From Pegea sp. RAD2-039 (taxonomy: Eukaryota; Chordata; Thaliacea; Salpida; Salpidae): a stretch of 64,000 nucleotides of DNA. Of the stretch, positions 30,060 to 64,000 are shown piece by piece. The stretch's first letter is position 1, and every line of letters starts with the position of its first letter. The notes beneath the pieces were generated by a model. It was not told the origin of the DNA, ran no database searches, and saw only the letters and a list, made by a program, of their open reading frames with translations. The DNA lies in the NCBI GenBank assembly GCA_034620365.1, contig JAQGEQ010000357.1, positions 124,001 through 188,000 on the forward strand. The letters are read 5' to 3'. A program made the position numbers and the translations under genes.

Positions 30060-30429
30060 GATCCATTATTATAAACCAGACAGCTTAAAAGTATAAAATG
30101 ATGAAATTTAAAAATATAAAACTACATTGATTAATGTATAAATTCAACAAAACGAAATATAAAATTTTATACAGAATAAATAATATCTGATAAAAAAACT
30201 TTAAAATATTAGACAGTAATTTAATTGATATGATATTTGATAAAAATCTAATTATAGGAAGAAAAAAGGAATGAAAATAGTTTATTCTAAAAATATTAAC
30301 TCTTTAAATAATCTTTCCATATAATTAAAACTTAAATGATTCAAAATAAATTTCCAATTCTTGATAATTCCCTAAACAAGTATAAAAAAGAAAATGGAAA
30401 TAGATTTATAATTAAAATTAACTTGTCAT

Positions 30430-31610
30430 CATTTATTATAAAGATTTAGTTGGTTCTGACAACATATTTCTACTTTTACTAAATTTCATTTATTCTAAAC
30501 TATGAATAATGTTGAAAAAACAGTCTTATCTAAATAATTAGTTCTAAAACAAAATAATTTTAAGCCAATCAGGTTACAGAGCTTCTCAACACAAACAGAA
30601 AAATGAAGACATAGGATTTGGGTGGGTCACATTATCTATTAGAAGCTAAGTTTGTTTGGATTTTTAAAAGTTAGAAAAAGTTTCAAATTAAAAAACGCCT
30701 CCTAATATTTTGTTTTTACTTTCAGCTTTTTGAATTATATTAATTTTTTGTGGTCTGATTAGCCAATCACAGCTAGAAGGTCATTATTTTCCAAACTAAT
30801 TTTATCTAAGTATTGTTTGAATCAACAAGCGAATAAAATAAAGTATTATGAAGTTGAACAAGTTTGAAAATATATTTCCAAAATTAATTTATACAAAATT
30901 TTCAGTTCATTATTGTCAATGCATGTATCATTATATATATTATTATGTTATTTTAAATTTAATAAATAAAAATGAATTCATTTCTAAACGACTTGCCCAT
31001 GGCAAATTCAAAATTAAAGAACTGTTAGGTTAAATAATCTCTAATTGTACATTTAATATATGTAGAAATTGAAGCATTTTAGTTAGAAAAAGAAAGTTTT
31101 AAACAATAAATTATTTGGATAATTTTTGAAAGTAAAATATGGACAAAAAATAAGATACATTTATAAGCAAAAACATCAACTAGATCTCAACAATCAACTT
31201 TTTTAAAAGTAATAAAAAACAGATATTTTTAAAAAACATTTCTTGAGATATAGTGAATGCATCACAAACACATAATATCTGTATTAGTTGAAGCATCAAT
31301 TTAGAGGAACAAATAGATAGCACAATTAGAGTATAAAGAAATTAGAAATCAGCTGACAAAATAATCCAAGCAGTAATCAAATTTTTTTGTAAGAAATAAA
31401 AAAATTGCTCAAAATATATTCTAAACTATTTTTTCAAACTCTTCACCTAACTAAACTGTCTAAACTTATTTAATATCTAAATTTAATTAATTTAATATTG
31501 CCTCAACACTTTTACTTAAGATTTAATTTTTCATTTTTAAAGTAAAAGTTTCCTGATTAAACAGAAAAAAATTGATCACCTTAAATAAATTTAAATATTG
31601 GTTATTAAAC
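30430..31610 (-). mobile_element. Degenerate LTR flanking U1 at the left edge
   Basis: On the minus strand it begins with GTTTAATAAC at 31610 and follows the LTR consensus for about 570 bp. It then passes into diverged sequence and picks up a later LTR piece near 30430-30540 (TTATCTAAATAATTAG). It is the mirror of 62626-63560. Confidence 0.6.
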
Positions 31611-31719
31611 TCAACCTACTATATTAAAGATAAACTTATTTTATTAGTTGCCAACCCTTTTTAATCTATCACCATACTTGTAATGTACTTCTACTAGTGG
31701 TAGCCAGATATGGGTTTTA

Positions 31720-31836
31720 GTTGACAGTGACTGCTGCAGGTATATCACTAGTTTTGCATTCCACCGTGAATGGTAAAGCTTCATTAATGGAATGTAATAG
31801 TGACTGGGTGATGTATTTCTTCATATGTTCAATATC
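31720..31836 (-). pseudogene. RNase H fragment, U1
   Basis: 39 sense codons containing LPFTVEC and SDI.AAVTVN, the start of the retroelement RNase H domain (family pattern LPFxVExDASDxAIxAxLNQ). The usual catalytic aspartate position reads KTSD rather than DASD. It shares diagnostic bases (TTTTGCATTCC on the plus strand) with U7 only. Confidence 0.6.
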
Positions 31837-31940
31837 CTGAATCTATCTTCTCTTCATAGGTAATTGGTTTTAAATCGCATAAACTTGTTTGTAAAGTTAC
31901 AAATATGAAGGTTCTAGGTGACAGACAGCTTTGTATTCGT

Positions 31941-32365
31941 TTAGTATTTCTTTAAAAGTATGATGTTAACTCTACAAAATTTATTTATTTGACCAACATT
32001 AGACGGTTGAGCCATTTCCACATAAAATTTGCTTCCAAGTTTAAGATTCTTCAAAATCTGAGCAATTATTCGATATTTAAAGCTGTTCGAGGATCCGGTA
32101 TCTAAAACTGCCTTTAAAACCTTACTCTCCATAGAAATCTGCACCATGGAATATTTGAATATCTTGGAAAGTGAAGTAAGTCCCAGTACTTTACACATAT
32201 ACTGCAGGTAAATTTCTTTGTCTGGCTGACCTTTTCTTCGAAGACCCTTCACAAAGAAATCATGCTTTCTATAATATAACATACAGGCTATAATGTTTCC
32301 TTTGTCTACATTTCAAAGGCGTATTTGTTCCGACTCGACATTAAAGAAATGAGATGCTACATCCA
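31941..32365 (-). pseudogene. Retroelement aspartic protease remnant, U1
   Basis: Frame 31941-32282 contains VLDTGSSNSF, the D-S/T-G active-site turn of retropepsins, followed by KYRIIAQILKNLKLGSKF. The segment before it looks like the end of a gag-type region, but no zinc knuckle is visible. No reverse transcriptase lies between this and the RNase H fragment 104 bases away. Confidence 0.65.
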
Positions 32366-33099
32366 TATTTTGTCATTTCTTTGTTTGCCAGATTCTAAAA
32401 AGGATTATTCTATAACAAAACTAACAACAGTAATTTAAGATAGACAATATAACTGTAGACTAGACAAAGAACCCTATAAAGAATTAAATTCGTATTTAGC
32501 AACCTTATAATCAGATTTACGCATTTGGTAAAATAATATTCTGTAATACAGTTTAAATATACCAGAATGATAAAGGCCATTTTTTTCATTATTTTGCTTT
32601 AAATAACCTTGAAAACATATCATAAGTTTAACCTATTTAATATTGTCTTAAGATTTATGCTTTTGATTTAAATTTTATTTGTAGAGTATACGTTTCAATT
32701 AATGGATTACAATAAACTGACCACATTTAAAGAAAATTAGGCAATAATACTAAGAGTCAACTGTTTATAATTGAGAGCTTATAACTCTCTTTGATTTGAT
32801 TGAATTTCCTAACAAACTATTTAATTCTATGCTGAGAGAATGTATCAAAGAACTAAATTGCTTTTATCTTTGTTACTAACACAAAAGATTAATGACTTTT
32901 GAATTGAGCTATAAATCTTAGTATTGTAGATTTTTGTTAAATTTTGGGAAGAGGTTTTGTTTAAATCAACAATTATTTAATGGAACAATTTATTAACCGT
33001 CGGTTTTGAACATTTCATTTATTAAATCAATTGACACGTTGCCAGTCTGAGAGATATATGTTCATCCTAATTTTTGTCTAATTTTGTATTTGAAGAATA

Positions 33100-33645
33100 A
33101 AGCACACTATTTTGGAAAAACTCGGTCAGTCTGACTTCCCTAAGGAGTATTCCTGGAGATTGAACGAACGTTTTTATGGTGGCTTTACTGGTTTAAATAA
33201 AGCTGAAACCGCCAAGAAGCTTGGAGATGAACAAGTAACTCTACTATTTTTATTTCTGTGATCTAATTATATTTTTAGGTTCATATATGGCGTCGTAACT
33301 ATAATGTTCCCGATCCAGTCATGGATGAATCTAATCCCTATTATCAAGTGATTCACAAGGACCAGAAATTCAAGGATGTCCCTAAAGAATCTATATCATG
33401 AGAGCTTAGAGCTCGCTATCAAACGCACTTTGCCTTTTTGGGAAATCAAAACTGTTTCAATTATTTACCCAGCAAGCAATTTATAATTATCCCACAAGGA
33501 AACAGTTTAAGAGGAATCGCAAAACATCTTGACGGTTAGTTTGAAGTGGAAGCTGAATGAGGAATTTAACAACTTATTTAGCAATTTGTGATGAAATGGT
33601 ATTGTGCACTATTGAAGAAATGAAGCAAACAATTAAACGAGAAGT
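33100..33645 (+). pseudogene. Captured phosphoglycerate mutase (dPGM) fragment, U1
   Basis: Reads [36 protein letters not shown], then a 44-bp GT-AG intron (33235-33278), then VHIWRRNYNVP, LPFW and, after a frameshift, GNSLRGIAKHLDG. These match the middle of cofactor-dependent phosphoglycerate mutase ([30 protein letters not shown]). The catalytic His before GNSLRG is Gln, and the N-terminal catalytic His region is absent. It lies antisense to the protease frame of the same unit. Confidence 0.85.
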
Positions 33646-33672
33646 AATCATTTCTTTTTAACTATTCTTTAT

Positions 33673-34170
33673 TTAATTTTCTCTTTTTATATTCGATTTA
33701 AATTTTTTACAAAAATCAAACTTTTCAAATTTAGAAAAAAAAGTATTCGTAGAATGTTTCCTATAATAGGCATTTGTCATTTCAGTTAACAAAGTCTTGT
33801 TTTCTTTTTCGAGCCGTTGTTTCCTCCTAAAGTGAATAAGAATTTCATCATCTGTATAATGTTTGATTGGATCATCTAACTTTTTATTTTTTTCTAATAC
33901 ATCTTTTCGAAATGTGATTACATCTTTTCGAATTGTAATTACTTTTTTTTGAATTGTAATTACATCTTTTTCACTTGCAATTTCATCTTCTTCATATTCT
34001 ATATCCTTTAGCTTATTCATTTGATAGTCTTGAACCATTTGACTGACAACCGTGATAAACACGTATATCAAAAATTCATAGAAAAAATGTTCAGAAAAAA
34101 AATCCCTGGTTACCAAAAATATTAAGGCTATATGAAATACAACCCGCGCCAGAAAATATATCAAATTCAT
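33673..34170 (-). CDS. Novel 165-residue frame of the repeat unit, U1 copy
   Basis: Intact frame. Residues about 5-21 and 30-46 are hydrophobic (possible membrane helices). An acidic patch EYEEDE follows. Then come four back-to-back heptads (KDVITIQ, KKVITIR, KDVITFR, KDVLEKN) predicted to form a coiled coil, and a basic C-terminus. It starts about 36 bases into the internal region from the LTR end, the place where a retroelement's first frame would sit, but it has no gag features. No homolog is recognised. Differences between copies are mostly amino-acid changing, so recent selection for function is not evident. Confidence 0.5.
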   Translation of the reverse strand: MNLIYFLARVVFHIALIFLVTRDFFSEHFFYEFLIYVFITVVSQMVQDYQMNKLKDIEYEEDEIASEKDVITIQKKVITIRKDVITFRKDVLEKNKKLDDPIKHYTDDEILIHFRRKQRLEKENKTLLTEMTNAYYRKHSTNTFFSKFEKFDFCKKFKSNIKREN

Positions 34171-34205
34171 AGTTTTTAATCTTATAATAAAATTTAAAAT
34201 AATAC

Positions 34206-35938
34206 TAAAAGCAAGCTAAAGAAAATGAAATCAAAAATGAAATATAATATTATTTTGAATTATTTCAGCCAGAATGTCCATGCTGTACGAACAGTGACAA
34301 ACTGCCCACGTGGCTATAACACTCGCTTTAAATTAGTATTGTCATTTAACAGACTTACAGGCCTTTCCAGCCGGGTTTTAAGTCGACATTTCTTTTGTCA
34401 CGTGTTTGGCGGGTGTAATTGCCGTTACACTGTACAAGAAGATAATATCTTAAAATAACATAAAACCATAAATAAAACTAAATCAACAAATTGATTACAT
34501 AAACAAAGTTAACAAACAAAAATTAAAAAATAAAGTTATTTACATGATAGGAAAGAGACAAATATGTGATAAAAAATGTAAAACTTTGACTTGTTATTGT
34601 TTAAATAATATAAAAATATCGAAAGTAAAGTTAAAGTAGTTGTCTTCAATCATTATACAGTTTTAATTTCTTCTGACAACATAATTTTACTTTTACAAAA
34701 TTCTATTTATTTTAAACTATCCAAAAAGCTTGAAGAATAGTCTTATCTAAATAACTAATATAATAACTAATAATACAAATTTCTGATTATACTTTCTAAA
34801 AAGAAAATATGCTAGGGAATATAATAATACCTTATGAGATATTATATACACATAACAAAAATTATTATCATATGTATAATAATATATATTAAGTGTACAT
34901 AAAAAGCAGAAGACCTTTGTCAAGCTGTAGCAATCATCTTAAGAAATTATGAATACAGGAGTAACGTAGGAAACATTCAAAAATTAGCTATACAAAATAC
35001 CAAAGCGGTTCAAGAAAATTTTTTTTGGAAAAAAAACAATATTCTCCGAAAACATTCTAACCTCACATTTTCAAAAATTAATTCTAAAAATTTCTGAAAC
35101 CTTAATTTAATCAAACTTAATTTATTTCATATAATTCATATCAATATAACATTTGTACAGGTTTTTTGATTGAATCAAAAAGAACCACACTAAAATAAAA
35201 TTTAATATTATTAGTTAATTTCAACATAATATTATTGAAAAACAGAAACAAAATTCAATATCTAGAAGATTTTCGGTGTAATTTGATAAGTCTAACTAGA
35301 AATATCAGTTTAAGAATATTCTAGCGGAAATAAAAATGGATTATTTAGAAATAAATTATGCTGAGCAGAAATACGATAATTGTGAATAAAATAAAAATTA
35401 AACACTTTAGAAAAAGAAAGTTTTAAACGATAAATAATTTGGATGGATTTATGAAAGTAAAATCTAGACAAAAATGAAGTTATATTTATAAAAAAAAACA
35501 CCAACTATATCTCAACAATCAACTTTTTTAAAATTAATAAAAAACAGATATTTTTAAAAAACATTTCTTGAGATATAGTGAATGCATCACAAACACATAA
35601 CATCTGTATTAGTTGAAGCATCAATTTAGAGGAACAAATAGATAGCACATTCAGAGTATAAAGAAATTAGAAATCAGATGACAAAATAATCCAAGCAGTA
35701 ATCAAAGATTTTTGTAAGAAATAAAAAAATTGCTCAAAATATGTTCTGAACTATTTTGTTTTCAAATTCTTCACCTAACTAAACTGTCTAAACTTATTTA
35801 ATATCTAAATTTAATTTATTTAATATTGTCTCAACACTTTTACTTAAGATTTAATTTTTGATTTTTTAAATAAAAGTTTCCTGATTAAACAGAAAAAAAT
35901 TGATCACCGTAAATAAATTTAAATATTAGTTATTAAAC
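34206..35938 (-). mobile_element. LTR-like repeat, type I (1733 bp)
   Basis: On the minus strand it runs from GTTTAATAAC to the end motif AGCTTGCTTTTA. It contains the GC-richer block with CACGTGAC and AGGCCTGTAAGTCTG near its downstream end; the TATA position reads TTAAAA-like and is degenerate. The plus-strand 77-codon frame inside it (34225-34458) recurs in most copies and is probably not a gene. Confidence 0.8.
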
Positions 35939-36544
35939 ATAAAAGTAAACTAAAGAAAATGAAATCAAAAATGAAAAATAATATTATTTTGAATTATTTC
36001 GGCCAGAATGTCCATGCTATACACATAGTGACAAACTGCCCAAGTGGCTATAACTCTCGCTTTAAATTAGTATTGTCATTTAACAGACTTACAGGCCTTT
36101 CCAGCAGGTTTTTATATCAACTTTTCTTCCGTCACGTGTTTGGCGGGTGTAATTGCCGCTACACTGTACAAGAAGATAATATCTTAAAATAACATAAAAC
36201 CATAAACAAAACTAAATCAACAAATCGATTAAATAAACAAAGTTAACAAACAAAAATTAAAAAATAAAGTTGTTTATAGAATTTTAAAAAGGAAATATTT
36301 GATAAAGGGAAAAATCGGATTTCTAAAAATAGTCTTGATTATAAATTACTTCTTTTGTTTTTTAGATTTCTAACTTAATAGATATATTTTGTGAGATTGT
36401 GAGCTGTAGGTGCTCTCATCAATAAATAAATACATAAACGTTATTTAATAGAATATGTTCTTTATAATTAAAAAATATTATTTTTCTATTAATTACTAAA
36501 TATAACTTATTCAAAACTATTAATTATGTAAATTATATTTTTAA
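35939..36544 (-). mobile_element. Truncated LTR-like repeat, type II
   Basis: Abuts the previous LTR directly. It carries TATAAAAA-type sequence (plus-strand TTTTTATATCAAC near 36110) and a roughly 300-bp insertion with a LINE-like tail (36372-36435). It is cut at 36545, where it joins the 3' end of the 165-codon frame of U2. Confidence 0.7.
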
Positions 36545-36630
36545 TAAATTCTTTTTTTTTCTAAATTTGAAAAGTTTGATTTTTGTAAAAAATTTAAATC
36601 AAATATAAGAAGAGAAAATTAAATAAAGAA
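36545..36630 (+). pseudogene. 3' remnant of the 165-residue frame, U2
   Basis: Only the last 25 or so codons remain (FDFCKK-type end). The breakpoint into LTR sequence is the same as that at 58005 in U6, in mirror orientation. Confidence 0.7.
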
Positions 36631-36649
36631 TAGTTAAAAAGAAATGATT

Positions 36650-37203
36650 ACTTCTCGTTTAATTGTTTGCTTCATTTCTTCAATAGTGCACAATACCATT
36701 TCATCACAAATTACTAAATAAGTTGTTAAATTCCTCATTCAGCTTCCACTTCAAACTAACCGTCAAGATGTTTTGCGATTCCTCTTAAACTGTTTCCTTG
36801 TGGGGCAATTATAAATTGCTTACTAGGTAAATAATTGAAACAGTTTTGATTTCCCAAAAAGGCAAAGCGCATTTGATAGTGAGCTCTAAGCTCTCATGAT
36901 ATAGAATCACATCTTTAGGGAAATACTTGAATTTCTGGTCCTTGTGAATCACTTGATAATAGGGATTAGATTCATCCATGACTGGAGCGGGAACATTAAA
37001 GTTACAACGCCAGATATAAACCTAAAAATATCATTAGATCACAGAAATAAAAATGGTAGAGTTACTTGTTCATCTCCAAACTTCTTGGCGGTTTCAGCTT
37101 TATTTAAACCAGTTAAGCCACCATGATGACGTTCGTTTAATCTCCAGGAATACTTCTTAGGGAAGTCAGACTGACCGAGTTTTTCCAAAATAGTGTGCTT
37201 TAT
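36650..37203 (-). pseudogene. Captured phosphoglycerate mutase fragment, U2
   Basis: Same fragment as in U1, read on the minus strand, with intron and GNSLRGIAKHLDG. This copy reads AERHHGG-like sequence with [18 protein letters not shown], closer to the canonical NERHYGGLTG motif than U1. Confidence 0.82.
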
Positions 37204-37936
37204 TCATAAAAACAAAATTAGACAAAAATTAGGATGAACAAATATTTCTCAGACCGGCAACGTGTCAATTGATTTAATAAATGAAATGTTCAAAACTGTC
37301 GGTTGATAAATTGTTCCATTAAATAATTGTTGATTTAGACAAAAACTCTTCCCAAAATGTTACAAAAATCTACAATACTAAGATTTATAGTTCAATTCAA
37401 AAGTCATTGATCTGTAGTGTCAGTTACAAAGATAAAAGCAATTTAGTTCTTTGATACATTCTCTCAGCATAGAATTAAATAGTTTGTTAGGAAATTCAAT
37501 CAAATCAAAGAGAGTTATAAACTGTCAATTATAAAAGCTAAGTTTAAACAATGTTGCCTAATTTTCTTTAAATTTGGTCAGTTTATTGTAATCCATTAAT
37601 TGAAATGTATACTCTACAAATAAAATTTACATCAAAAACACAAATCTTAAGGCAATATTAAATAAGTTAAATTTTACTTATGATATGTTTTCAGGGTTAA
37701 TTTAAGAAAATTATTGAAAAAATTGGCTTAAATTTTTCTGGTATATTTAAACTGTATTACAGAATATTATTTTACCAAATGCGTAAATTTGATTATAAGG
37801 CTGCTAAATACGAATTTAATTCTTTATAGGGTTCTTTGTCTAGTCTACAGTTATATTGTCTATCTTAAATTACTGTTGTTAGTTTTGTTATAGAATAATC
37901 CCTTTTAGAATCTGGCAAATAAAGAAATGACAGAAT

Positions 37937-38355
37937 ATGGAGGTAACATCTCATATTTTTAATGTCGAGTCGGAACAAATACGACTTTGAGATGTAAACA
38001 AAGGAAACATTATAGCCTGTATGTTATATTATAGAAAGCATGATTTCTTTATAAAAAGTTTTCGGAAAAAAAATCAGCCAGACAAAGAAATTTACCTGCA
38101 GTATATGCGTAAAGTACTGGATCTAACTTCACTTTCCAAGATATTCAAATATGCCATGTTGTAGATTTCTATAGAGGGTAAGGTATTTAGGCACTTTTAG
38201 ATACCGGATCCTCAAACAACTTTAAATATCGAAGAATTGCTCAGATTTTGAAGAATCTTAAACTTGGAAGTAAATTTTATGTGGAAATGGCTCAACCGTC
38301 TAATGTTTGTCAAATAAATAAGTTTTGTAGAGTTAACATCAAACTTTTAAAGTAA
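37937..38355 (+). pseudogene. Retroelement aspartic protease remnant, U2
   Basis: Contains LLDTGSSNNFKYRRIAQ in one frame, but the upstream part is broken by stops and frameshifts (TGA near 37987; TAG near 38161). Confidence 0.6.
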
Positions 38356-38465
38356 TAGTAAACGAATATAAAGCTGTTTGTCACCTACAACTTTTATATT
38401 TGTAACTCTACAAATAAGTTTATGCGATTTAAAACCAAATACCTATGAAGAGAAGATAGAATCAG

Positions 38466-38582
38466 GATATTGAACATACCAAGAAATACATCACCCAGTC
38501 ACTATTACATACCATTAATGAAGCTTTACCATTCACGGTGGAATGTAATACTAGTGATATATCTGCAGAAGTCACTGTCAAC
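38466..38582 (+). pseudogene. RNase H fragment, U2
   Basis: 39 codons with LPFTVECNTSDISA, ending in a stop after TVN, as in the other units. Confidence 0.58.
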
Positions 38583-38691
38583 TAAAACCCATATCTGGCT
38601 ACCTCTAGGTGAAGTACATTAAAAGTATGGTGATAGATTGAAAATGGTTGGCGACTACTGAAATAAGTTTTTCTTAAGTATATTAGGTTGA

Positions 38692-40719
38692 GTTTAATAA
38701 CCAATATTTAAGTTTATTTACGGTGATCAATTTTTTTCTGTTTAATCAGGAAACTTATATTTTAACAAAACAAAAAATTAAATCTTTAGTAAAAGTGTTG
38801 AGGCAATATTAAATAAATTAAATTTAGATATTAACTAAGTTTATACAGTTTAGTTAGGTGAAGAGTTTGAAAAAATAGTTTAGAACATATTTTGAGCAAT
38901 TTTTTTATTTCTTACAAAAAACTTTGATTACTGCTTGGATTATTTTGTCATCTGATTTCTAGTTTCTTTATACTCTAAATGTGCTATCTAATTGTTTCTC
39001 TAAATTGATGCTTCAACTAATACAGATGTTATGTGTTTGTGATTCATTCACTATATCTCAAGAAATGTTTTTTTTAAATATCTGTTTTTTATTACTTTTA
39101 AAAAAGTTGATTGTTGAGATCTAGTTGATGTTCTTTATTATAAATGTATCTTCATTTTTGTATAGTTTTTACTTTCATAAGTCCATCCAAATTATTTATT
39201 GTTTAAAACTTTCTTTTTCTAAAGTATTTATTTTTTATTTTATTCACAATTGTCGTAATTCTGCTCAGCCTAATCCATTTCTAAATAATCCATTTTTAAA
39301 TCCGCTAGAACATACTTAAACTGATATTTCTAGTTAGACTTATCAAATTACATCGAAAATCTTCTAGATATTGAATTTTGTTTCTGTTTTTCAATTATAT
39401 TAAGTTGAATTTAACTAATAATATTAGATTTCATTTTAGTCTGGTTCTCTTTGATTCAATCAAAAAACCTGTACAAATGTTATGGTGATATGAATTATAA
39501 AAAATAAATTAAGTTTGATTAAATTAAGGTTTTAGAACTTTTTAGAATTAATTTTTGAAAATGTGAGGTTAGAATGTTTTCATAATATATTAATTTTTTT
39601 CCTAAAAAAATTTTCTTGAACCGCTTTGGTATTTTGTATAGCTAATTTTTAAATGTTTCCTACGTTACTCCTGCATTCCTAATTTTTTAAGATGATTGCT
39701 ACAGCTTGACAAACGTCTTCAGCTTTTTATGTACACTTAATATCTATTATTATACATATGATAATAATTTTAATTAAATGTATATAATTTTTATTAAGGT
39801 ATTATTATATTTGTCAGCATATTTTCTTTTTAGAAAGTATAATCAGAAATTTGTATTATTAGTTATTATATCAATTATTTAGATAAAACTGTTCTCCAAG
39901 CTTTTTGGATAGTTTAGATTAAATGAAGCTTACTAAAAGTAGAATTATGTTGTCAGAAGCAATTAAAACTGTATAATGATTGAAGACAAGTACTTTAACT
40001 TTACTTTCGATTTTCGATGTTTTTATATTATTTAGAGAACTAGTAATTTACATTAAAGTTAAGTTACATTACAACTTATTATTAAGCAATAGTTTACATT
40101 TCAGTTTTTTTAATTAATTAAAAATATAATTTACAGAATTAATAGTTTTATAAGTTATATCTAGTAATTAATAGAAAAGTAATATTTTTTTAATTATAAA
40201 GAACATATTCTATTAAATAACGTTTAAGTATTTATTTATTGATGAGAGCATCTACCGCTCACAATCTCACAAACTATATCTATTATGTTAGAAATATAAA
40301 AACCAAAAATGTAATTTATAATAAAGACTTTTTTAGAAATCCGAATTTTCCCTTTATCAAATATTTCCTTTTTAAAATTCTATAAATAACTTTATTTTTT
40401 AATTTTTGTTTATTAACTTTGTTTATTTAATCAATTTGTTGATTTAGTTTTGTTTATGGTTTTATGTTATTTTAAGATATTATCTTCTTGTACAGTGTAG
40501 CGGCAATAACACCCGCCAAACACGTGACGGAAGAAAAGTTGATATAAAAGCTGGCTGGAAAGGCCTGTAAGTCTGTTAAATGACAATACTAATTTAAAGC
40601 GAGAGTTATAGCCACGTGGGCAGTTTGTCACTGTGCGTACAGCATGGACATTCTGGCCGAAATAATTCAAAATAATATTATATTTCATTTTTGATTTCAT
40701 TTTCTTTAGCTTGCTTTTA
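38692..40719 (+). mobile_element. LTR-like repeat, type II (2028 bp) with TATA box
   Basis: Starts GTTTAATAAC and ends GCTTGCTTTTA. It carries a roughly 300-bp insertion including a minus-oriented LINE-like tail (40232-40312). CACGTG (40521-40526) and TATAAAAG (40543-40550) lie about 170 bases before the LTR end and point into U3, as an LTR promoter would. Confidence 0.8.
40543..40550 (+). promoter_or_regulatory. TATA box in the type II LTR
   Basis: TATAAAAG, 17 bases after an E-box CACGTG, and followed at a normal start-site distance by AGGCCTGTAAGTCTG, which contains a splice-donor-like GTAAGT. Matching boxes occur at 58236-58243 and 60194-60201. Confidence 0.55.
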
Positions 40720-40754
40720 GTATTATTTTAAATTTTATTATAAGATTAAAAACT

Positions 40755-41265
40755 ATGAATTTGATATATTTTCTGGCGCGGGTTGTATTTCATATAGCCT
40801 TAATATTTTTGGTAACCAGGGATATTTTTTCTGAACATTTTTTCTATGAATTTTTGATATACGTGTTTATCACGGTTGTCAGTCAAAAGGTTCAAGACTA
40901 TCAAATGAATAAGCTAAAGGATATAGAATATGAAGAAGATGAAATTGCAAGTGAAAAAGATGTAATTACAATTCAAAAAAAAGTAATTACAATTCGAAAA
41001 GATGTAATCACATTTCAAAAAGATGTATTAGAAAAAAATAAAAATTAGATGATCCAATCAAGCATTATACAGATGATGAAATTCTTATTCACTTTAGGAA
41101 GATACAACGGCTCGAAAAAGAAAACAAGACTTTGTTAACTGAAATGACAAATGCCTATTATAGGAAACATTCTACGAATTCTTTTTTTTCTAAATTTGAA
41201 AAATTTTATTTTTGTAAAAAATTTAAATCAAATAAAAAAAGAGAAAATCAAATAAAGAATAGTTA
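40755..41265 (+). pseudogene. Frameshifted copy of the 165-residue frame, U3
   Basis: Identical in layout to the intact copies up to the heptads. A one-base loss in an A-run near 41045 then brings a stop at 41046-41048; the remaining C-terminal sequence is present in another frame. Confidence 0.75.
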
Positions 41266-41274
41266 AAAAGAAAT

Positions 41275-51840: not shown

Positions 51841-51856
51841 TTTAACTATTCTTTAT

Positions 51857-52354: not shown

Positions 52355-52389
52355 AGTTTTTAATCTTATAATAAAATTTAAAATAATAC

Positions 52390-54118
52390 TAAAAGCAAGC
52401 TAAAGAAAATGAAATCAAAAATGAAATATAATATTATTTTGAATTATTTCGGCCAGAATGTCCATGCTGTACGCACAGTGACAAGCTGCCCACGTGGCTA
52501 TAACTCTCGCTTTAAATTAGTATTGTCATTTAACAGACTTACAGGCTTTTCCAGCCGGGCTTTAAGTCGACATTTCTTTTGTCACGTGTTTGGCGGGTGT
52601 AATTGCCGCTACACTGTACAAGAAGATAATATCTTAAAATAACATAAAACCATAAATAAAACTAAATCAACAAATTGATTAAATAAACAAAGTTAACAAA
52701 CAAAAATTAAAAAATAATGTTATTTACACGATAGGAAAGAGAAAAATATGTGATAAAAAATGTAAAACTTTGACTTGTTATTGTTTAAATTATACAAAAA
52801 TATCGAAAGTAAAGTTAAAGTAGTTGTCTTCAATCATTATACAGTTTTAATTTCTTCTGACAACATAATTTTACTTTTAGAAAATTCTATTTATTCTAAA
52901 CTATCCAAAAAGCTTGAAGAATAGTCTTATCTAAATAACTAATATAATAACTAATAATACAAATTTCTGATTATACTTTCTAAAAAGAAAATATGCTAGG
53001 GAATATAATAATACCTTATGAGATATTATATACACATAACACAAATTATTATCATATGTATAATAATATATATTAAGTGTACATAAAAAGCAGAAGACGT
53101 TTGTCAAGCTGTAGCAATCATCTTAAGAAATTATGAATACAGGAGTAACGTAGGAAACATTCAAAAATTAGCTATACAAAATACCAAAGCGGTTCAAGAA
53201 AATTTTTTTAGGAAAAAAATCAATATTCTCTGAAAACATTCTAACCTCACATTTTCACAAATTAATTCTAAAAATTTCTAAAACCTTAATTTAATCAAAC
53301 TTAATTTATTTCATATAATTCATATCAATATAACATTTGTACAGGTTTTTTGATTGAATCAAAAAGAACCAAACTGAAATGAAATTTAATATTATTAGTT
53401 AAATTCAACATAATATTATTGAAAAACAGAAACAAAACTCAATATCTAGAAGATTTTCGGTGTAATTTGATAAGTCTAACTAGAAATATGAGTTTAAGAA
53501 TGTTCTATCGGATATAAAAATGGATTATTTAGAAATGGATTAGGCTGAGCAGAAATACGATAATTGTGAATAAAATAAAAATTAAACACTTTAGAAAAAG
53601 AAAGTTTTAAACGATAAATAATTTGGATGGACTTATGAAAGTAAAATCTAGACAAAAATTAAGATACATTTATAAAAAATAACATCAACTAGATCTCAAT
53701 AATCAACTTTTTTAAAAGTAATAAAAACAGATATTCAAAAAAATATTTCTTGAGATATAGTGAATGGACCACAAACACATAATATCTGTATTAGTTGAAG
53801 CATCAATTTAGAGGAACAAATAGTTAGCACATTTAGAGTATAAAGAAATTAGAAATCAGATGACAAAATAATCCAAGCAGTAATCAAAGATTTTTGTAAG
53901 AAATAAATAAATTGCTCAAAATATATTCTAAACTATTTTTTTCAAACATTTCACCTAACTAAACTGTCTAAACTTATTTAATATCTAAATTTAATTTATT
54001 TAATATTGTCTCAACACTTTTACTTATGATTTAATTTTTCATTTTTTAAATATAAGTTTCCTGATTAAACAGAAAAAAATTGATCACCGTAAATAAATTT
54101 AAATATTAGTTATTAAAC
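52390..54118 (-). mobile_element. LTR-like repeat, type I
   Basis: 1729 bp, minus orientation; the mirror of 45050-46782. Contains a 77-codon plus-strand frame at 52409-52642 that I do not regard as a gene. Confidence 0.8.
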
Positions 54119-54119
54119 A

Positions 54120-55846
54120 TAAAAGTAAACTAAATGAAATGAAATCCAAAATGAAAAATAATAATATTCCGAATTATTTCGGCCAGAATGTCCATGCTGT
54201 ACGCACAGTGACAAACTGCCCACGTGGCTATCACTCTCGCTTTAAATTAGTATTGTCATTTAACAGACTTACAGGCCTTTCCAGCCGGGTTTTAAGTCGA
54301 CTTTTCTTCCGTCACGTGTTTGGCGGATGTAATTGCCGTTACACTGTACAAGAAGATAATATCTTAAAATAACATAAAACCATAAACAAAACTAAATCAA
54401 CAAATTGATTAATAAAATAGTTTTATCAAAACAAAACTATTTACACGATAGGAAAGAGACAAATATGTGATAAAAAATGTAAAACTTTGACTTGTTATTG
54501 TTTAAATAATATAAAAAAATCGAAAATCAAAAGTAAACTTAAAGTAGTTGTCTTCATTCATAACACAGTTTTAATTTCTTCTGACAACATAATTTTACTT
54601 TTACAAAATTCTATTTATTCTAAACTATCCAAAAAGCTTGAAGAATAGTCTTATCTAAATAATTAATATAATAACTAATAATACAAATTTCTGATTATAC
54701 TTTCTAAAAAGAAAATATGCTGACAAATATAATAATACCTTAATAAATATTATATACATCTAATAAAAATTATTATCATATGTATAATAATAGATATTAA
54801 GTGTACATAAAAAGCAGAAGACGTTTGTCAAACTGTAGCAATCATCTTAAGAAATTATGAATGCAGAAGTAACGTAGGAAACATTCAAAAATTAGCTATG
54901 CAAAATACCAAAGCGGTTCAAGAAAATTTTTTTAGGAAAAGAAAAAATATATTCTGAAAACATTCTAACCTCACATTTTCAAAAATTAATTCTAAAAAAT
55001 TCTAAAACCTTAATTTAATCAAACTTAATTTATTTCATATAATTCATATCACCATAACATTTGTACAAGTTTTTTGATTGAATCAAAAAGAACCAAACTA
55101 AAATGAAATTTAATATTATTAGTTAGATTCAACTTAATATAATTGAAAAACAAAAACAAAATTCAATATCTAGAAGATTTTCGGTGTAATTTGATAAGTC
55201 TAACTAGAAATATCAGTTTAAGAATGTTCTAGCGGATATAAAAATGTATTATTTAGAAATGAATTATGCTGAGCAGAAATACGATAATTGTGAATAAAAT
55301 AAAAATTAAACACTTTTGAAAAAGCAAGTTTTAAACGATTAATAATTTGGATGGACTTATGAAAGTAAAAACTATAAAAAAATTAAGATACTTTTATAAT
55401 AAAGAACATCAACTAGATCTCAACAATCAACTTTTTTAAAAGTAATAAAAAACAGATATTTAAAAAAAATATTTCTTGAGATATAGTGAATGCATCACAA
55501 ACACATAACATCTGTATTAGTTGAAGCATCAATTTAGAGGAACAAATAGATAGCACATTTAAAGTATAAAGAAACTAGAAATCAGCTGACAAAATAATCC
55601 AAGCAGTAATCAAAGTTTTCTGTAAGAAATAAAAAAATTGCTCAAAATATGTTCTAAACTATTTTTATCAAACATTTCGCCGAACTAAACTGTCTTAACT
55701 TATTTAATATCTAAATTTAATTTATTTAATATTGCCTCAACATTTTTGCTTAAGATTTAATTTTTTGTTTTGTTTAAATATAAGTTTCCTGATTAAACAG
55801 AAAAAAATTCATCACCGTAAATAAACTTAAATATTAGTTATTAAAC
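54120..55846 (-). mobile_element. LTR-like repeat, type I, directly abutting the previous one
   Basis: 1727 bp, in direct tandem with 52390-54118, separated by a single base. The mirror-image counterpart of the LTR-LTR junction at 45049. Confidence 0.8.
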
Positions 55847-55955
55847 TCAACCTAATATACTTAAGAAAAACTTATTTCAGTAGTCGCCAACCCTTTTCAA
55901 TCTATCACCATACTTTTAATGTACTTCACCTAGAGGTAGCTAGATATGGGTTTTA

Positions 55956-56072
55956 GTTGACAGTGACTGCTGCAGATATATCACTAGTATTACATTCCAC
56001 CGTGAATGGTAAAGCTTCATTAATGGAATGTAGTAGTGACTGGGTGATGTATTTCTTGGTATGTTCAATATC
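55956..56072 (-). pseudogene. RNase H fragment, U6
   Basis: Minus-strand 39-codon segment with the SDISAAVTVN pattern. Confidence 0.56.
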
Positions 56073-56179
56073 CTGATTCTATCTTCTTTTCATAGGTATT
56101 TGGTTTTAAATTGCATAAACTTATTTGTAGAGTTACAAATATAAAAGTTGTAGGTGACAAACAGCTTTATATTCGTTTA

Positions 56180-56615
56180 CTATTTCTTTAAAAGTTTGAT
56201 GTTACCTCTACAAAACTTATTTATTTGACAAACATTAGACGGTTGAGCCATTTCCACATAAAATTTGCTTCCAAGTTTAAGATTCTTCAAAATCTGAGCA
56301 ATTCTTCGATATTTAAAGTTGTTTGAGGATCCGGTATCTAAAAGTGCCTTTAAAACCTTACTCTAAAACTTTAAAACCCATAGAAATCTGCACCATGGAA
56401 TATTTGAATATCTTGGAAAGTGAAGTAAGATCCAGTACTTTACGCATATACTGCAGGTAAATTTCTTTGTCTGCCTGATTTTTTTTCCGAAAACTTTTTA
56501 TAAAGAAATCATGCTTTCTATAATATAACATACAGGCTATAATGTTTCCTTTGTTTACATCTCAAAGTCGTATTTGTTCCGACTCGACATTAAAAATATG
56601 AGTTGTTACCTCCAT
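56180..56615 (-). pseudogene. Retroelement aspartic protease remnant, U6
   Basis: Contains the DTGSSNNF turn. A small local duplication near 56360-56385 (CTTTAAAACC repeated) disrupts the region. Confidence 0.58.
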
Positions 56616-57349
56616 ATTCTGTCATTTCTTTATTTGCCAGATTCTAAAAGGGATTATTCTATAACAAAACTAACAACAGTAATTTAAGATAGGCAATACA
56701 ATTGTAGACTAGACAAAGAACCCTATAAAGAATTAAATTCGTATTTAGCAGCCTTATAATCAGATTTACGCATTTGGTAAAATAATATTCTGTAATACAG
56801 TTTAAATATACCAGAAAAATTTAAGCCAATTTTTTCAATAATTTTCTTAAATTAACCCTGAAAACATATCATAAGTAAAATTTAACTTATTTAATATTGT
56901 CTTAAGATTTGTGTTTTTGATGTAAATTTTATTTGGAGAGTATACGTTTCAATTAATGGATTACAATAAACTGACCACATTTAAAGAAAATTAGGCAATA
57001 ATACTAAGAGTCAACTGTTTATAATTGAGAGCTTATAACTCTCTTTGATTTGATTGAATTTCCTAACAAACTATTTAATTCTATGCTGAGAGAATGTATA
57101 AAAGAACTAAATTGCTTTTATCTTTGTAACTAACACAAAAGATTAATGACTTTTGAATTGAGCTATAAATCTTAGTATTGTAGATTTTTGAAACATTTTG
57201 GGAAGAGTTTTTGTCTAAATCAACAATTATTTAATACAACAATCTATCAACCGTCGGTTTTGAACATTTCATTTATTAAATCAATTGTCACGTTGCCGGT
57301 CTGAGAGATATATGTTCATCCTAATTTTTGTTTAATTTAGTATTTTATG

Positions 57350-57905
57350 AATAAAGCACACTATTTTGGAAAAACTCGGTCAGTCTGACTTCCCTAAGAA
57401 GTATTCCTGTAGATTAAACGAGCGTCATCATGGTGGCTTAACTGGTTTAAATAAAGCTGAAACTGCCAAGAAGTTTGGATATGAACAAGTAACTCTACCA
57501 TTTTTATTTCTGTGATCTAATAATATTTTTAGGTTCATATATGGCGTCGTAACTTTAATGTTCCCGCTCCAGTCATGAATGAATCTAATCCCTATTATCA
57601 AGTGATTCACAAAGACCAGAAATTCAAGGATGTCCCTAAAGATGAGATTCTATATCATGAGAGCTAAGAGCTCACTGTCAAACGCGCTTTGCCTTTTTGG
57701 GAAATCAAAACTGTTTCAATTATTTACCCAGTAAGCAATTTATAATTGCCCCACAAGGAAACAGTTTAAGAGGAATCGCAAAACATCTTGACGGTTAGTT
57801 TGAAGTGGAAGCTGAATGAGGAATTTAACAACTTATTTAGTAATTTGTGATGAAATGGTATTGTGCACTATTGAAGAAATGAAGCAAACAATTAAACGAG
57901 AAGTA
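57350..57905 (+). pseudogene. Captured phosphoglycerate mutase fragment, U6
   Basis: Plus-strand copy. [19 protein letters not shown], short intron, VHIWRRNFNVPAPVM, then DEILYHES, where this copy keeps codons that others lost. GNSLRGIAKHLDG closes it. Confidence 0.84.
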
Positions 57906-57924
57906 ATCATTTCTTTTTAACTAT

Positions 57925-58005
57925 ACTTTATTTAATTTTCTCTTCTTATATTTGATTTAAATTTTTTACAAAAATCAAACTTTTCAAATTTAGAAAAAAA
58001 AAGAA
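57925..58005 (-). pseudogene. 3' remnant of the 165-residue frame, U6
   Basis: Only the C-terminal codons remain. The break at 58005 is the same as at 36545 in U2, followed by the same LTR-derived sequence (ATTTATTAAAAATATAATTT). Confidence 0.7.
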
Positions 58006-58412
58006 TTTATTAAAAATATAATTTACATAATTAATAGTTTTGAATAAGTTATATTTAGTATTTAATAGAAAAATAATATTTACTTTATTTTTTAATTTTT
58101 GTTTATTAACTTTGTTTATTTAATCAATTTGTTGATTTAGTTTTGTTTATGGTTTTATGTTATTTTAAGATATTATCTTCTTGTATAGTGTAGAGGCAAT
58201 AACACCCGCCAAACACGTGACGGAAGAAAAGTTGATATAAAAGCTGGCTGGAAAGGCCTGTAAGTCTGTTAAATGACAATACTAATTAAAAGCGAGAGTT
58301 ATAGCCACGTAGGCAGTTTGTCACTGTGCGTACAGCATGGACATTCTGGCCGAAATAATTCAAAATAATATTATTTTTCATTTTGGATTTCATTTTATTT
58401 AGTTTACTTTTA
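58006..58412 (+). mobile_element. Truncated LTR-like repeat with TATA box
   Basis: Downstream part of a type II LTR with CACGTG (58214-58219) and TATAAAAG (58236-58243). It lacks about 200 bp, including the LINE-like tail present in its mirror partner 35939-36544. It abuts the next LTR at 58413. Confidence 0.7.
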
Positions 58413-58413
58413 T

Positions 58414-60370
58414 GTTTAATAACTAATATTTAAATTTATTTACGGTGATCAATTTTGTTCTGTTTAATCAGGAAACTTTTACTTTAAAAATGAAAAGTTA
58501 AATCATTAGTAAAAGTGTTCAGACAATATTAAATAAATTAAATTTAGATATTAAATAGATTTAAACAGTTTAGTTAGGTGAAGAATTTGAAAAAAAAATA
58601 GCTTAGAATATATTTTGAGCAATTTTTTTATTTCTTACAAAAAACTTTGATTACTGCTTGGATTATTTTGTCAGCTGATTTCTAATTTCTTTATACTCTG
58701 AATGTGCTATCTATTTGTTCCTCAAAATTGATGCTTCAACTAATACAGATGTTATGTGTTTGTGATGCATTCACTATATCTCAAGAAATATTTTTTTTAA
58801 ATATCTGTTTTTATTACTTTTAAAAAAGTTGATTATTGAGATCTAGTTGATATTTTAATTTATAAATGTAACCTAATTTTTGTCTAGTTTTTACTTTCAT
58901 AAATGCATCCAAATTATTCATCATTTATAACTTTCTTTTTCTAAAGTATTTATTTTTTATTCTATTCACAATTATCGTATTTCTGCTCAGCATATTTCAT
59001 TTCTAAATAATCCATTTTTATATCCGCTAGAACATTCTTAAACTGATATTTCTAGTTAGACTTATCAAATTGCATCGAAAATCTTCTAGATATTGAATTT
59101 TGTTTCTGTTTTTCAATTATATTAAGTTGAATTTAACTAATAATATTAAATTTCATTTCAGTTTGGTTCTTTTTGATTCAATCAAAAAACCTGTACAAAT
59201 GTTATATTGATATGAATTATATGAAATAAATTAAGTTTGATTAAATTAAGGTTTTAGAAATTTTTAGAATTAATTTGTGAAAATGTGAGGTTAGAATGTT
59301 TTCAGAGAATATTGATTTTTTTCCTAAAACATTTTCTTGAACCGCTTTGGTATTTTGTATAGCTAATTTTTGAATGTTTCCTACGTTACTCCTGTATTCA
59401 TAATTTCTTAAGATGATTGCTACAGCTTGACAAACGTCTTCAGCTTTTTATGTACACTTAATATCTATTATTATACATATGATAATAATTTTAATTAAAT
59501 GTATATAATATTTATTAAGGTATTATTATATTTGTCAGCATATTTTCTTCTTAGAAAGTATAATCAGAAATTTGTATTTTTAGTTATTATTGTTCTCCAA
59601 GCTTTTTGGAACTAAAAGTTTAGATAATGATTGAAGACAAGTACTTTAACTTTACTTTCGATTTTCGATGTTTCTATATTATTTAGAGAACTAGTAATTT
59701 ACATTAAAGTTAAGTTACATTACAACTTATTATTAAGTAATAGTTTACATTTCAGTTTTTTTAATTAATTGAAATATAATTTACAGAATTAATAGTTTTA
59801 TAAGTTATATTTAGTAATTAATAGAAAAATAAAATTTTTTTAGTTGTAACGAACATATTCTAATAAATAACGTTTAAGTATTTATTTATTGATGAGAGCA
59901 TCTACCGCTCACAATCTCACAAACTATATCTATTAAGTTAGAAATATAAAAAACACAAAATGTAATTGATAATCAAGACTTTTTTAGAAATCCGATTTTT
60001 CCCTTTAGCAAATATTTCCTTTTTAAAATTCTAAAAATAACTTTATTTTTTAATTTTTGTTTATTAACTTTGTTTATTTAATCAATTTGTTGATTTAGTT
60101 TTGTTTATGGTTTTATGTTATTTTAAGATATTATCTTCTTGTACAGTGAAACGGCATTTACACCCGCCAAACACGTGACTGAAGAAAAGTTGATATAAAA
60201 GCTGGCTGGAAAGGCCTGTAAGTCTGTTAAATGACAATACTAATTTAAAGCGAGAGTTATAGCCACTTGGGCAGTTTGTCACTGTGCGTACAGCATGGAC
60301 ATTCTGGCTGAAATAATTCAAAATAACATTATTTTTCATTTTTGATTTCATTTTCTTTAGCTTGCTTTTA
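58414..60370 (+). mobile_element. LTR-like repeat, type II (1957 bp) with TATA box
   Basis: Starts GTTTAATAAC and ends GCTTGCTTTTA. Carries the insertion with a minus-oriented LINE-like tail (59883-59945), CACGTG (60172-60177) and TATAAAAG (60194-60201). It lost about 60 bp near 59590 relative to 38692-40719. Confidence 0.8.
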
Positions 60371-60405
60371 GTATTATTTTAAATTTTATTATAAGATTAA
60401 AAACT

Positions 60406-60903
60406 ATGAATTTGATATATTTTCCGGCGCGGGTTGTATTTCATATAGCCTTAATATTTTTGGTAACCAGGGATTTTTTGTCTGAACATTTTTTCTATGA
60501 ATTTTTAATATACGCGTTTATCACGGTTGTCAGTCAAATGGTTCAAGACTATCAAATGAATAAGCTAAAGGATATAGAATATGAAGAAGATGAAATTGCA
60601 AGTCAAAAAGATGTAATTACAATTCAAAAAAAAGTAATTACAATTCGAAAAGATGTAATCACATTTCTAAAAGATGTATTAGAAAAAAATAAAAAATTAG
60701 ATGATCCAATCAAGCATTATACAGATGATGAAACTCTTATTCACTTTAGGAGGAAACAACGGTTCGAAAAAGAAAACAAGACTTTGTTATCTGAAATGAC
60801 AAATGCCTATTATAGGAAACATTCTACGAATTCTTTTTTTTCTAAATTTGAAAAGTTTTATTTTTGTAAAAAATTTAAATCAAATATAAGAAGAGAAAAT
60901 TAA
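60406..60903 (+). CDS. Novel 165-residue frame of the repeat unit, U7 copy
   Basis: Intact. Differences include PARV for LARV, DFLS for DFFS, YAF for YVF, TFLK for TFRK and LLSEM for LLTEM. It is the only intact copy placed downstream of a TATA-bearing LTR. Confidence 0.52.
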   Translation: MNLIYFPARVVFHIALIFLVTRDFLSEHFFYEFLIYAFITVVSQMVQDYQMNKLKDIEYEEDEIASQKDVITIQKKVITIRKDVITFLKDVLEKNKKLDDPIKHYTDDETLIHFRRKQRFEKENKTLLSEMTNAYYRKHSTNSFFSKFEKFYFCKKFKSNIRREN

Positions 60904-60924
60904 ATAAAGAATTGTTAAAAAGAA

Positions 60925-61485
60925 ATGATTACTTCTCGTTTAATTGTTTGCTTCATTTCTTCAATAGTGCACAATACCATTTCATCACAAATTACTAAAT
61001 AAGTTGTTAAATTCCTCATTCAGCTTCCACTTCAAACTAACCGTCAAGATGTTTTGTGATTCCTTTCAAACTGTTTCCTTGTGGGGCAATTATAAACTGC
61101 TTACTGGGTAAATAATTGAAACAGTTTTGATTTTCCAAAAAGGCAAAGCGCGTTTGACAGTGAGCTCTAAGCTCTCATGATTTAGAATCACATCTTTAGG
61201 GATATCCTTGAATTTCTGGTCTTTGTGAATCACTTGATAATAGGGATTAGATTCATTAATGACTGGAGCGGGAACATCAAAGTTACGACGCCATATATGA
61301 ACCTAAAAATATTATTAGATCACAGAAATAAAAATAGTAGAGTTACTTGTTCATCTCCAAGCTTCTTGGCGGTTTCAGCTTTATTTAAACCTGTTAAGCC
61401 AATATAATGACGTTCGTTCAATCTCCAGGAATAATTTTTAGGGAAGTCAGACTGACCGAGTTTTTCCAAAATAGTGTGCTTTATT
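60925..61485 (-). pseudogene. Captured phosphoglycerate mutase fragment, U7
   Basis: Minus-strand copy with short intron and both exons. The NER..GG motif is degraded ([16 protein letters not shown]). Same frameshift. Confidence 0.8.
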
Positions 61486-62217
61486 CATAAAAACACCATT
61501 AAACAAAAATTAGGATGAACAAATATTTCTCAGACCGGCAACGTGACAATTGATTTAATAAATGAAATGTTCAAAACTGACGGTTGATAAATTGTTCCAT
61601 TAAATAATTGTTGATTTAAACTAAACCTCTTCCCAAAATTTAACAAAAATCTACAATACTAAGATTTATAGCTCAATTCAAAAGTCATTAATCTTTTGTG
61701 TTAGTCACAAAGATAAAAGCAATTTAGTTCTTTGATACATTCTCTCAGCATAGAATTAAATAGTTTGTTAGGAAATTCAATCAAATCAAAGAGAGTTATA
61801 AACTGTCAATTATAAAAGCTAACTTTAAACAATGTTGCCTAATTTTCTTTAAATGTGGTCAGTTTATTGTAATCCATTAATTGAAACGTATACTCTACAA
61901 ATAAAATTTACATCGAAAACACAAATCTCAAGGCAATATTAAATAAGTTAAATTTTACTTATGATATGTTTTCAAGGTTAATTTAAGCAAAATAATGAAA
62001 AAATTGGCTTAAATTATTCTGGTATATTTAAACTGTATTACAGAATATTATTTTACCAAATGTGTAAATCTGATTATAAGGTTGCTAAATACGAATTTAA
62101 TTCTTTATAGGGTTCTTTGTCTAGTCTACAGTTATATTGTCTATCTTAAATTACTGTTGTTAGTTTTGTTATAGATTAATCCTTTTTAGAATCTGGCAAA
62201 CAATGAAATGACAAAAT

Positions 62218-62374
62218 ATGGAGTTAACATCTCATATTTTTAATGTCGAGTCGGAACAAATACGCCTTTGAAATTTAGACAAAGAAAACATCATAACCTG
62301 TATGTTATATTATAGAAAGCATGATTTCTTTGTGAAGGGTCTTCGAAGAAAAGGTCAGCCAGACAAAGAAATGT
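62218..62374 (+). pseudogene. Aspartic protease remnant, U7, truncated before the active site
   Basis: Runs from the ATG equivalent to AAAGAAAT, then jumps to the RNase H side (ATAGATTCAGG). The DTGSS region and the following 600 or so bases of the other units are deleted. Confidence 0.65.
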
Positions 62375-62399
62375 AGTTATTGCGTAAAGATAGATTCAG

Positions 62400-62516
62400 G
62401 ATATTGAACATATCAAGAAATACATCACCCAGTCACTATTACATACCATTAATGAAGCTTTACCATTCACGGTGGAATGCAAAACTAGTGATATACCTGC
62501 AGCAGTCATTGTCAAC
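62400..62516 (+). pseudogene. RNase H fragment, U7
   Basis: 39 codons. GCAAAACTAGTGATATACC here matches the inverse of U1 rather than the other units. Confidence 0.58.
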
Positions 62517-62625
62517 TAAAACGTATATCTGGCTATCTCTAGGTGAAGTACATTACAAGTATGGTGATAGATTGAAAAGGGTTGGCAACTAATAAAATAA
62601 GTTTTTCTTAAGTATACTAGGTTGA

Positions 62626-63560
62626 GTTTAATAACTAATATTTAAGTTTATTTACGGTGATAAATTTTTTCTGTTTAATCAGGAAATTTTTACTTTAACA
62701 ATAAAAAATCAAATCATAAGTAAAAGTATAGAGGCAATATTAAATAAATTAAATTTAGATATTAAATAAGTTTAGACAGTTTAGTTCGGTGAAATGTTTG
62801 ATAAAAAATAGTTTAGAATATATTTTGAGCAATTTTTTTATTTCTTACAAAAAACTTTGATTACTGCTTGGATTATTTTGTCAGCTGATTTCTAGTTTCT
62901 TTATACTCTAAATGTGCTAACTATTTGTTTCTCTAAATTGATGCTTCAACTAATACAGATATTATGTGTTTGTGATGTATTCACTATGTCTCAAGAAATG
63001 TTTGTAATAAATATCTGTTTTATATTACTATTAAAACAGTTGATTTATTTATTTATTTATTACAATAAATGTGAAGGAGGGTGCCTAAAAAGAGCACCTC
63101 TCGCTAACACACATTCTCACAAATTAGATCTATTTGACGTGTAAACGAAAAAGCATATGACAATGAAGAACTGCACAGAATCATAGTATTGTAAAAGAGA
63201 AAAATTCACAGTTTAGAAGATTGTTGTGATTTAGTTTGTTTTTTCTTATAAATGTATCTTAATTTTTGTCTAGTTTTTACTTTCATAAATATATCAAAAT
63301 TGTTTATATTTTAAGACTTTTTTTTCTAATTAAAATTATTCAGTTTCTACATATAGCAAATGTATAAGTTGAGATTATTTAACCCAACAATTCTTTAATT
63401 TCAAAAACTAATTATTTAGATAACACTGTTTTTTTCAACTTTATTGATAGTTTAGAATAAATGAAACTTAGGCAGAAATATGTTGTCAGAACCAAATAAC
63501 CTTGTATAATAAATGATGACAAGTTAGTTTTGATTATAAATTTATTTTTCATTTTCTTTT
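62626..63560 (+). mobile_element. Degenerate LTR at the right edge with LINE-like tail
   Basis: Starts GTTTAATAAC and follows the LTR for about 400 bp. A minus-oriented LINE-like tail interrupts it (63043-63135, TTTATTTATTTATTA...GAGCACCTCTCGC), and it then resumes in pieces. It mirrors 30430-31610, which lacks this insertion. Confidence 0.6.
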
Positions 63561-64000
63561 TTATACTTGTTTATGGAATTTTCAAGAATTAGAAATTCAT
63601 TTTGAATCAGTTTAGTTTTAATTCTTTGAAAGATTATGAGGATTAAGAGAATTTGATGGAGTTAATATTTTTAGAATAAACTATTTTCATTCCTTTTTCT
63701 TTCAAAGATTATATTTTTAGTATTACCAAATATCATATTAATTAAATTACTGTCTAATATTATAAAAATTTTTATCAGATATTATTTATTCTGTATAAAA
63801 TTTTTAATTTCGTTTTGTTGGATTTACCCATTAATGAATTTAATTTTATATTTTTAGATTTTATTAGTATAAATTCTTAAATTGTCTTGTTTCTGATAAT
63901 GGACTTGATAATAATAGATCTGGTATTGCTTTTTGTACCCAATATTCTTTTTTTATAGTGTTTGTAATGTATATAGTTACAGTTTGTTTTCTCTTTGAAC
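63561..64000. repeat. Right outer flank, inverse of 29950-30430
   Basis: Plus-strand GATATTATTTATTCTGTATAAAATTTTT and neighbours match the inverse of 30120-30200. Similarity is still detectable, though weaker, up to about 63920, so the palindromic arm probably continues to the window edge. Confidence 0.6.

Follow-up and report, generated by a model that had tools for sequence, protein, structure and literature searches.

A single-locus mirror-image array beside a phosphoglycerate mutase gene in Pegea, probably built by local inverted and tandem duplication

Results

Features of the locus

The window, i.e. the whole 64,000-nucleotide stretch analysed here, corresponds to positions 124001-188000 of a 569-kb contig (C71) of Pegea sp. 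RAD2-039; the genome searched comprises 105.7 Mb in 387 contigs. The window matches a PLOD glycosyltransferase domain (2341-2634), a GH31 glucosidase and a perilipin, and neither Rfam nor tRNA scans gave a hit in the window. Short tandem repeats at 2618-3404, beside the PLOD match, have offsets that are multiples of 15 bp, are ~90% alike and are open in three frames; those at 14022-14519 have offsets in multiples of about 20 bp and are ~84% alike. A short dispersed repeat is found at 1719-1886, 28100-28266 and 63046-63218 and also beyond the window, its pieces being 75-90% alike. Two of its copies, 28043-28378 and, past the right end, 65623-65945, are mutually inverted (78%). Another tandem repeat, with a 57-bp step (84%), occupies 29008-29248.

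The latter lies just outside the left end of the structure which is the subject of this study, a mirror-image array of ~34 kb at 30062-63903. It consists of a left arm (30062-49635) and a right arm (49637-63903) arranged around a centre at ~49636. Taking the unit U1 as reference orientation, its modules are B (528 bp), INT (2595 bp), A (368 bp) and C (805 bp), and some copies contain a 244-bp segment, "gap1", between A and C. The features are:

30062-30543, plus strand: left outer inverted repeat, pairing with 63406-63903 (83.0% identity, 11.4% mismatch), with weaker similarity outward to 29926
31083-31610, plus: module B, copy 1
31611-34205, plus: INT copy U1, with a retropepsin-like remnant, a phosphoglycerate mutase (PGAM) fragment and a 180-aa open frame
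31941-32312, minus: retropepsin-like open frame in U1
33104-33546, plus: PGAM fragment in U1
33673-34215, minus: 180-aa open frame in U1
34206-35938, plus: A-C-B block (the "LTR" of the sequence-only reading)
35940-36550, plus: A copy 2 and gap1 segment, up to the inversion junction
36553-38691, minus: INT copy U2, truncated at INT 2132
38692-40719, minus: B-C-gap1-A block
40720-43321, minus: INT copy U3, 180-aa frame interrupted
43322-45048, minus: A-C-B block
45050-46782, minus: A-C-B block
46783-49376, minus: INT copy U4
49378-49800, no strand: centre, a partial B (minus, 49378-49635) facing a partial B (plus, 49637-49800), one base between them, asymmetry ~95 bp
49801-52389, plus: INT copy U5
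52390-54118, plus: A-C-B block
54120-55846, plus: A-C-B block
55847-58001, plus: INT copy U6, truncated at INT 2132
58004-60370, minus: gap1 piece-A-B-C-gap1-A; the junction 58001/58004 is the same as 36550/36553
60371-62625, minus: INT copy U7, internal deletion
62626-63329, minus: B, split by a 173-bp stretch (63046-63218) with a copy of the dispersed repeat at the right end of the array
63406-63903, minus: right outer inverted repeat

Architecture of the array

INT is present in seven copies, two of which (U2 and U6) are cut at INT 2132 while U7 lacks INT 240-598. Of the other modules, there are 9 pieces of A, 7 of C (one of them split) and 11 of B, in addition to an isolated 111-bp end of B at 63219-63329. 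They can be grouped as 5 A-C-B blocks lacking gap1, 2 in which gap1 separates A from C, and 6 lone pieces of A or B. From the centre outward, the left order is U4, ACB, ACB, U3, A-gap1-C-B, U2, inversion junction, gap1-A, B-C-A, U1, B, outer repeat, and the right order is U5, ACB, ACB, U6, the same inversion junction, gap1-A, B-C-gap1-A, U7, B, outer repeat. Departures from the mirror order are an extra left INT-B-C-gap1-A unit of 4.63 kb (36547-40034 and 41177-44664 are 95.8% identical), the U7 deletion, smaller truncations in the right arm, and variation in whether gap1 is present. A collinear chain links the left arm with the reverse complement of the right one; of its 13,504 ungapped columns, 717 (5.3%) are mismatched, and it takes in 95% of the right arm and 69% of the left. 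The palindromic match 41177-58007 has 94.5% identity. The junction between INT 2132 and gap1 at 36550 (U2) recurs at 58003 (U6), the overlapping printed stretch being identical when compared by eye.

What the sequence-only reading had claimed about layout is thus borne out: seven internal units, about 13 LTR-like repeats (5 + 2 + 6), a mirrored order around ~49.64 kb with one extra left unit, shared breakpoints (here the junction common to U2 and U6), and an inverted array of at least 33.8 kb, the outer inverted repeat reaching slightly further. Mirrored order and a shared junction are not expected from seven separate insertions, which supports the proposal, made in the same reading, of segmental inversion-duplication of a preformed cluster. 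A rearrangement found at both 36550 and 58003 was most simply formed once and copied with its surroundings.

Divergence between the arms and outer ends

Divergence is 4.7-6.4% in the interior of the chain, whereas in its two outermost pieces (~650 columns) it is 11.4% and 13.7%, about twice as much. The shift is sharp, near 31192/63045, where the right side holds the 173-bp stretch with the dispersed repeat. Further out, 29926-30559 and 64056-63389 are 77.8% identical over 677 columns, with similarity fading outward, and little weight attaches to a second inverted patch (29503-29637/64749-64608; 68%, E 3e-12), in a list where other AT-rich pairs score E 1e-7 to 1e-9. The outer pair is therefore either older than the interior or has escaped its homogenisation, and values of 11-14% outside and 5-6% inside are not accounted for by one inversion-duplication of the entire 33.8 kb unless conversion or more than one step is invoked. 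Growth in stages is thus likely.

Palindromes are a known type of fold-back assembly error, and an artefact could have arisen either from fold-back reads or by joining two haplotypes head to head. However, an interior difference of 5-6% and the 4.6-kb unit found in one arm only show that a single molecule was not read twice. The two flanks are also unlike each other, and the sole PGAM-family match on the contig outside the array is on the right side. We thus regard an artefact as improbable.

The PGAM fragment and its intact neighbour

Each INT carries a ~449-bp PGAM piece made of parts of two exons and a 44-bp intron. An intact PGAM gene lies at C71:190666-191821, on the minus strand, ~2.8 kb beyond the array. 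All seven pieces are 87.8-89.8% identical to this gene, with 6 gap columns in U1, U4 and U5 and 1 in the other four. A one-base gap in the coding part is common to U1, U3 and U7, the three of seven copies aligned in full, and U1 has an extra 5-base gap; given these gaps, the piece reads as a pseudogene. Among the best 120 protein relatives of PGAM, the first named one is a sturgeon record marked as an unverified contaminant (68%); the next named ones are from the tunicates Styela (75%) and Clavelina (74%), and an environmental protein reaches 86%. A captured host gene had been proposed. With the intron kept and the parent gene adjacent, a local DNA copy of part of that gene, intron included, is the better reading.

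Genome-wide copies and the mobile-element readings

Match counts in the genome are lower bounds, only the best candidates having been scored. For the A-C-B block, 19 of 19 scored matches (at least 19) fall at this locus (C71:154-187.9 kb), as do 9 of 9 (at least 9) for the left end. Among the best candidates for INT, 11 of 34 are on the same contig, one of them being the PGAM gene. The off-contig matches lie in INT 42-632, the retroelement-like part (22 of 23, 66-78% identity), and in INT 905-954 (1). INT carries a retropepsin-like stretch with DTGSS, and five of seven fetched dispersed sites (L021-L025) resemble the retropepsin remnant at the protein level. L022 has a CCHC-type knuckle before the protease, and L023 has a damaged one. 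By these comparisons, only the retropepsin-like remnant of INT is related to dispersed debris. L025 also contains a separate 1.17-kb inverted repeat (319-1478 and 3770-4921, 87%) whose arms enclose a retropepsin remnant. Alignment of six modules to both flanks, with 20 shuffles each, gave one clear excess besides the PGAM piece, between INT 730-1416 and 27037-27744 on the minus strand (65.9 versus a shuffle maximum of 42.9), a likeness perhaps due to AT-rich low complexity. Modules B, A, C and gap1 scored 0.5 to 10 points above shuffles in some combinations and at shuffle level in the rest.

These data bear on the reading first proposed for the locus, namely that an LTR retrotransposon captured PGAM, inserted and was then rearranged. 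INT is indeed flanked by 1.73-kb direct repeats and has the retropepsin-like stretch, with its protein-level likeness at the dispersed sites. LTR retrotransposons end in direct terminal repeats with TG...CA. Here, the presumed LTR ends are ...TTATTAAAC and (A)TAAAAG..., with small variants, and TG...CA is absent at the 7 B/INT, 5 INT/A and 4 B/A junctions read. Moreover, the repeats have no copy outside the locus among scored candidates, the PGAM piece retains its intron with the parent gene next door, and a Pfam scan of four array translations returned no family above cut-off. Of gag-pol, a retropepsin-like scrap was seen. An LTR element, now very unlikely, was therefore rejected on its single-locus matches and its ends. 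It is scarcely credible that the outer inverted repeats, of roughly 500 bp, are the ends of a giant fold-back/TIR transposon, since inverted similarity runs without a sharp end past 30062/63903 to 29926/64056 and the 9 scored left-end matches are all local; no target-site duplication was seen by eye in the array flanks. Helitrons have TC...CTRR ends in an AT target; INT starts with TC but has no CTRR end, and this reading was also rejected.

Relationships among the copies

Pairwise identities between INT copies range from 93.1 to 96.9%. U2, U3 and U6 form one clade (bootstrap 100), and U4 is closest to U1 (96.5%) and less close to its mirror partner U5 (95.1%). Of six INT trees compared by the AU test, the five alternatives to the best were rejected (p 0.0001-0.036), including three with U1-U7 and U4-U5 paired (p = 0.0001, 0.010 and 0.021); the more lenient SH test retains one of the five, a tree pairing U4-U5 alone (p 0.076). 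Pairing of units across the mirror, which the sequence-only reading had predicted, thus fails for U1-U7 and U4-U5, while U2 and U6 do share a clade, together with U3. Accordingly, the arms are not simple sisters throughout.

Informative sites with the same split occur in runs, at INT alignment columns 71-147 (U1+U7), 750-761 (U1+U4) and 1154-1187 (U2+U7; 7 sites with two others between). Counting adjacent informative sites with the same split against 10,000 shuffles per module, clustering was found in INT (28 versus a shuffle mean of 7.5, p <= 0.0001), C (10 versus 3.0, p 0.0002) and A (4 versus 1.0, p 0.0096); it was not significant in B, two partial copies being left out (1 versus 0.2, p 0.16). 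This clustering suggests patchy gene conversion between copies, which would explain both the failed mirror pairing and the preserved mirror order. We attribute the failed pairing to gene conversion and not to independent insertion.

Small open frames

Two small frames recur in the array. The 180-aa frame reaches its start in five copies, four of them open and U3 interrupted; U2 and U6 keep only its last 23 residues. Among U1, U4, U5 and U7, it is less variable than the compared rest of INT (25/498 versus 139/1613 columns, Fisher p = 0.007; retropepsin-like columns and columns gapped in any of the four left out). The retropepsin-like columns are themselves more variable among these copies (27/127) than other columns. 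Variable sites in the 180-aa frame are spread over codon positions as 8, 9 and 8, mean dN is 0.026 and mean dS 0.037 (6 pairs; ratio ~0.7), and chance alone would give no stop in 25 changes with probability 0.28 and no indel with probability 0.12, the latter using the rate of 9 indel events elsewhere in INT. The even codon positions, the ratio and these chance values do not amount to proof of coding. The frame has a weak resemblance to a short one located, in extended coordinates, at 64126-64257 (tblastn E 5.6e-5 in 103.5 kb); this resemblance is not significant genome-wide (E 0.45), and the nucleotide alignment scores 38.0 versus 38.9 for the best of 200 shuffles.

The 86-aa frame is stop-free in 8 of 9 array copies, with mean dN (0.068) above mean dS (0.049; 28 pairs from 8 copies, A8 with its stop left out) and thus no sign of purifying selection. 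Strong matches of both frames are at this locus only; outside the array, the 86-aa frame is matched only marginally, at three places on contig C50 that all contain a stop (E 0.06, 52% over 48 residues). Protein searches requiring shared exact 5-residue words found nothing at E <= 1 for either (22 candidates scored in one search and 1 in the other). By these measures, there is no convincing coding constraint on either frame.

Discussion

Proposed origin of the array

We conclude that the array is most probably a single-locus complex segmental duplication with local inverted and tandem copies. The sequence-only interpretation is thus supported for segmental duplication and not for the LTR element; the array looks like a slowly decaying local duplication, not a family of jumping elements. 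We infer the following order of events. A segment beside the PGAM gene, carrying a truncated PGAM piece and retroelement scrap, would have been duplicated in tandem (as a monomer A-INT-B-C, or A-B-C without INT) and inverted. One inversion junction would then have arisen between gap1 and INT, and the cluster bearing it would have been copied whole, inverted about ~49636, giving the mirrored arms; the 4.63-kb unit would be a gain on the left or a loss on the right. The inversions may have formed by fold-back or template-switch. Patchy gene conversion would have mixed the ancestry of the copies and could account for the lower divergence of the interior relative to the outer ends.

An apparent "LTR element cluster" can be a purely local, multi-step inverted amplification, recognised as such only by whole-genome search. 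The locus also illustrates, on a small scale, the duplication of an inversion junction among copies whose sequences no longer follow the expected mirror phylogeny.

Comparison with known systems

Clustered local segmental duplications with gene fragments form a general class. The array shares with them the single locus, tandem and inverted copies, shared breakpoints and a truncated neighbour gene, but its mirror order is unusually regular.

No function is evident for the array. Loci of hairpin RNAs (hpRNAs) originate by inverted duplication carrying pieces of another gene, and yield 21-22-nt RNAs from the hairpin. Here, PGAM pieces are present in both orientations within an inverted duplication, and of the 742 21-mers in the PGAM coding sequence, 117 have an exact match in the array when both strands are considered. 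It is conceivable, though improbable, that this is a natural hairpin locus whose small RNAs tune the adjacent PGAM gene, and, by extension, that both small frames are novel genes of this lineage that multiplied along with it. Were this so, read-through from U4 to U5 would place both PGAM orientations on one transcript, and the small RNAs could tune a glycolytic gene next door. Loci of this kind are described in Drosophila (PMC10317233). What hpRNA loci and the array have in common is an inverted duplication with pieces of another gene.

Finally, ampliconic palindromes are sex-linked structures with functional multicopy genes. Sex-chromosome examples come from human Y (PMC3723533) and willow (PMC7023750), and the array resembles them in its large inverted arms, its multiple internal units and its evidence of conversion between copies. 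Like these, the array has collinear inverted arms at one locus, with gene conversion indicated indirectly by the clustered splits in INT, C and A, though not B. Unlike them, its units carry pseudogene pieces, and its arms are ~95% alike, compared to >99.9% stated for human Y palindromes in PMC3723533.
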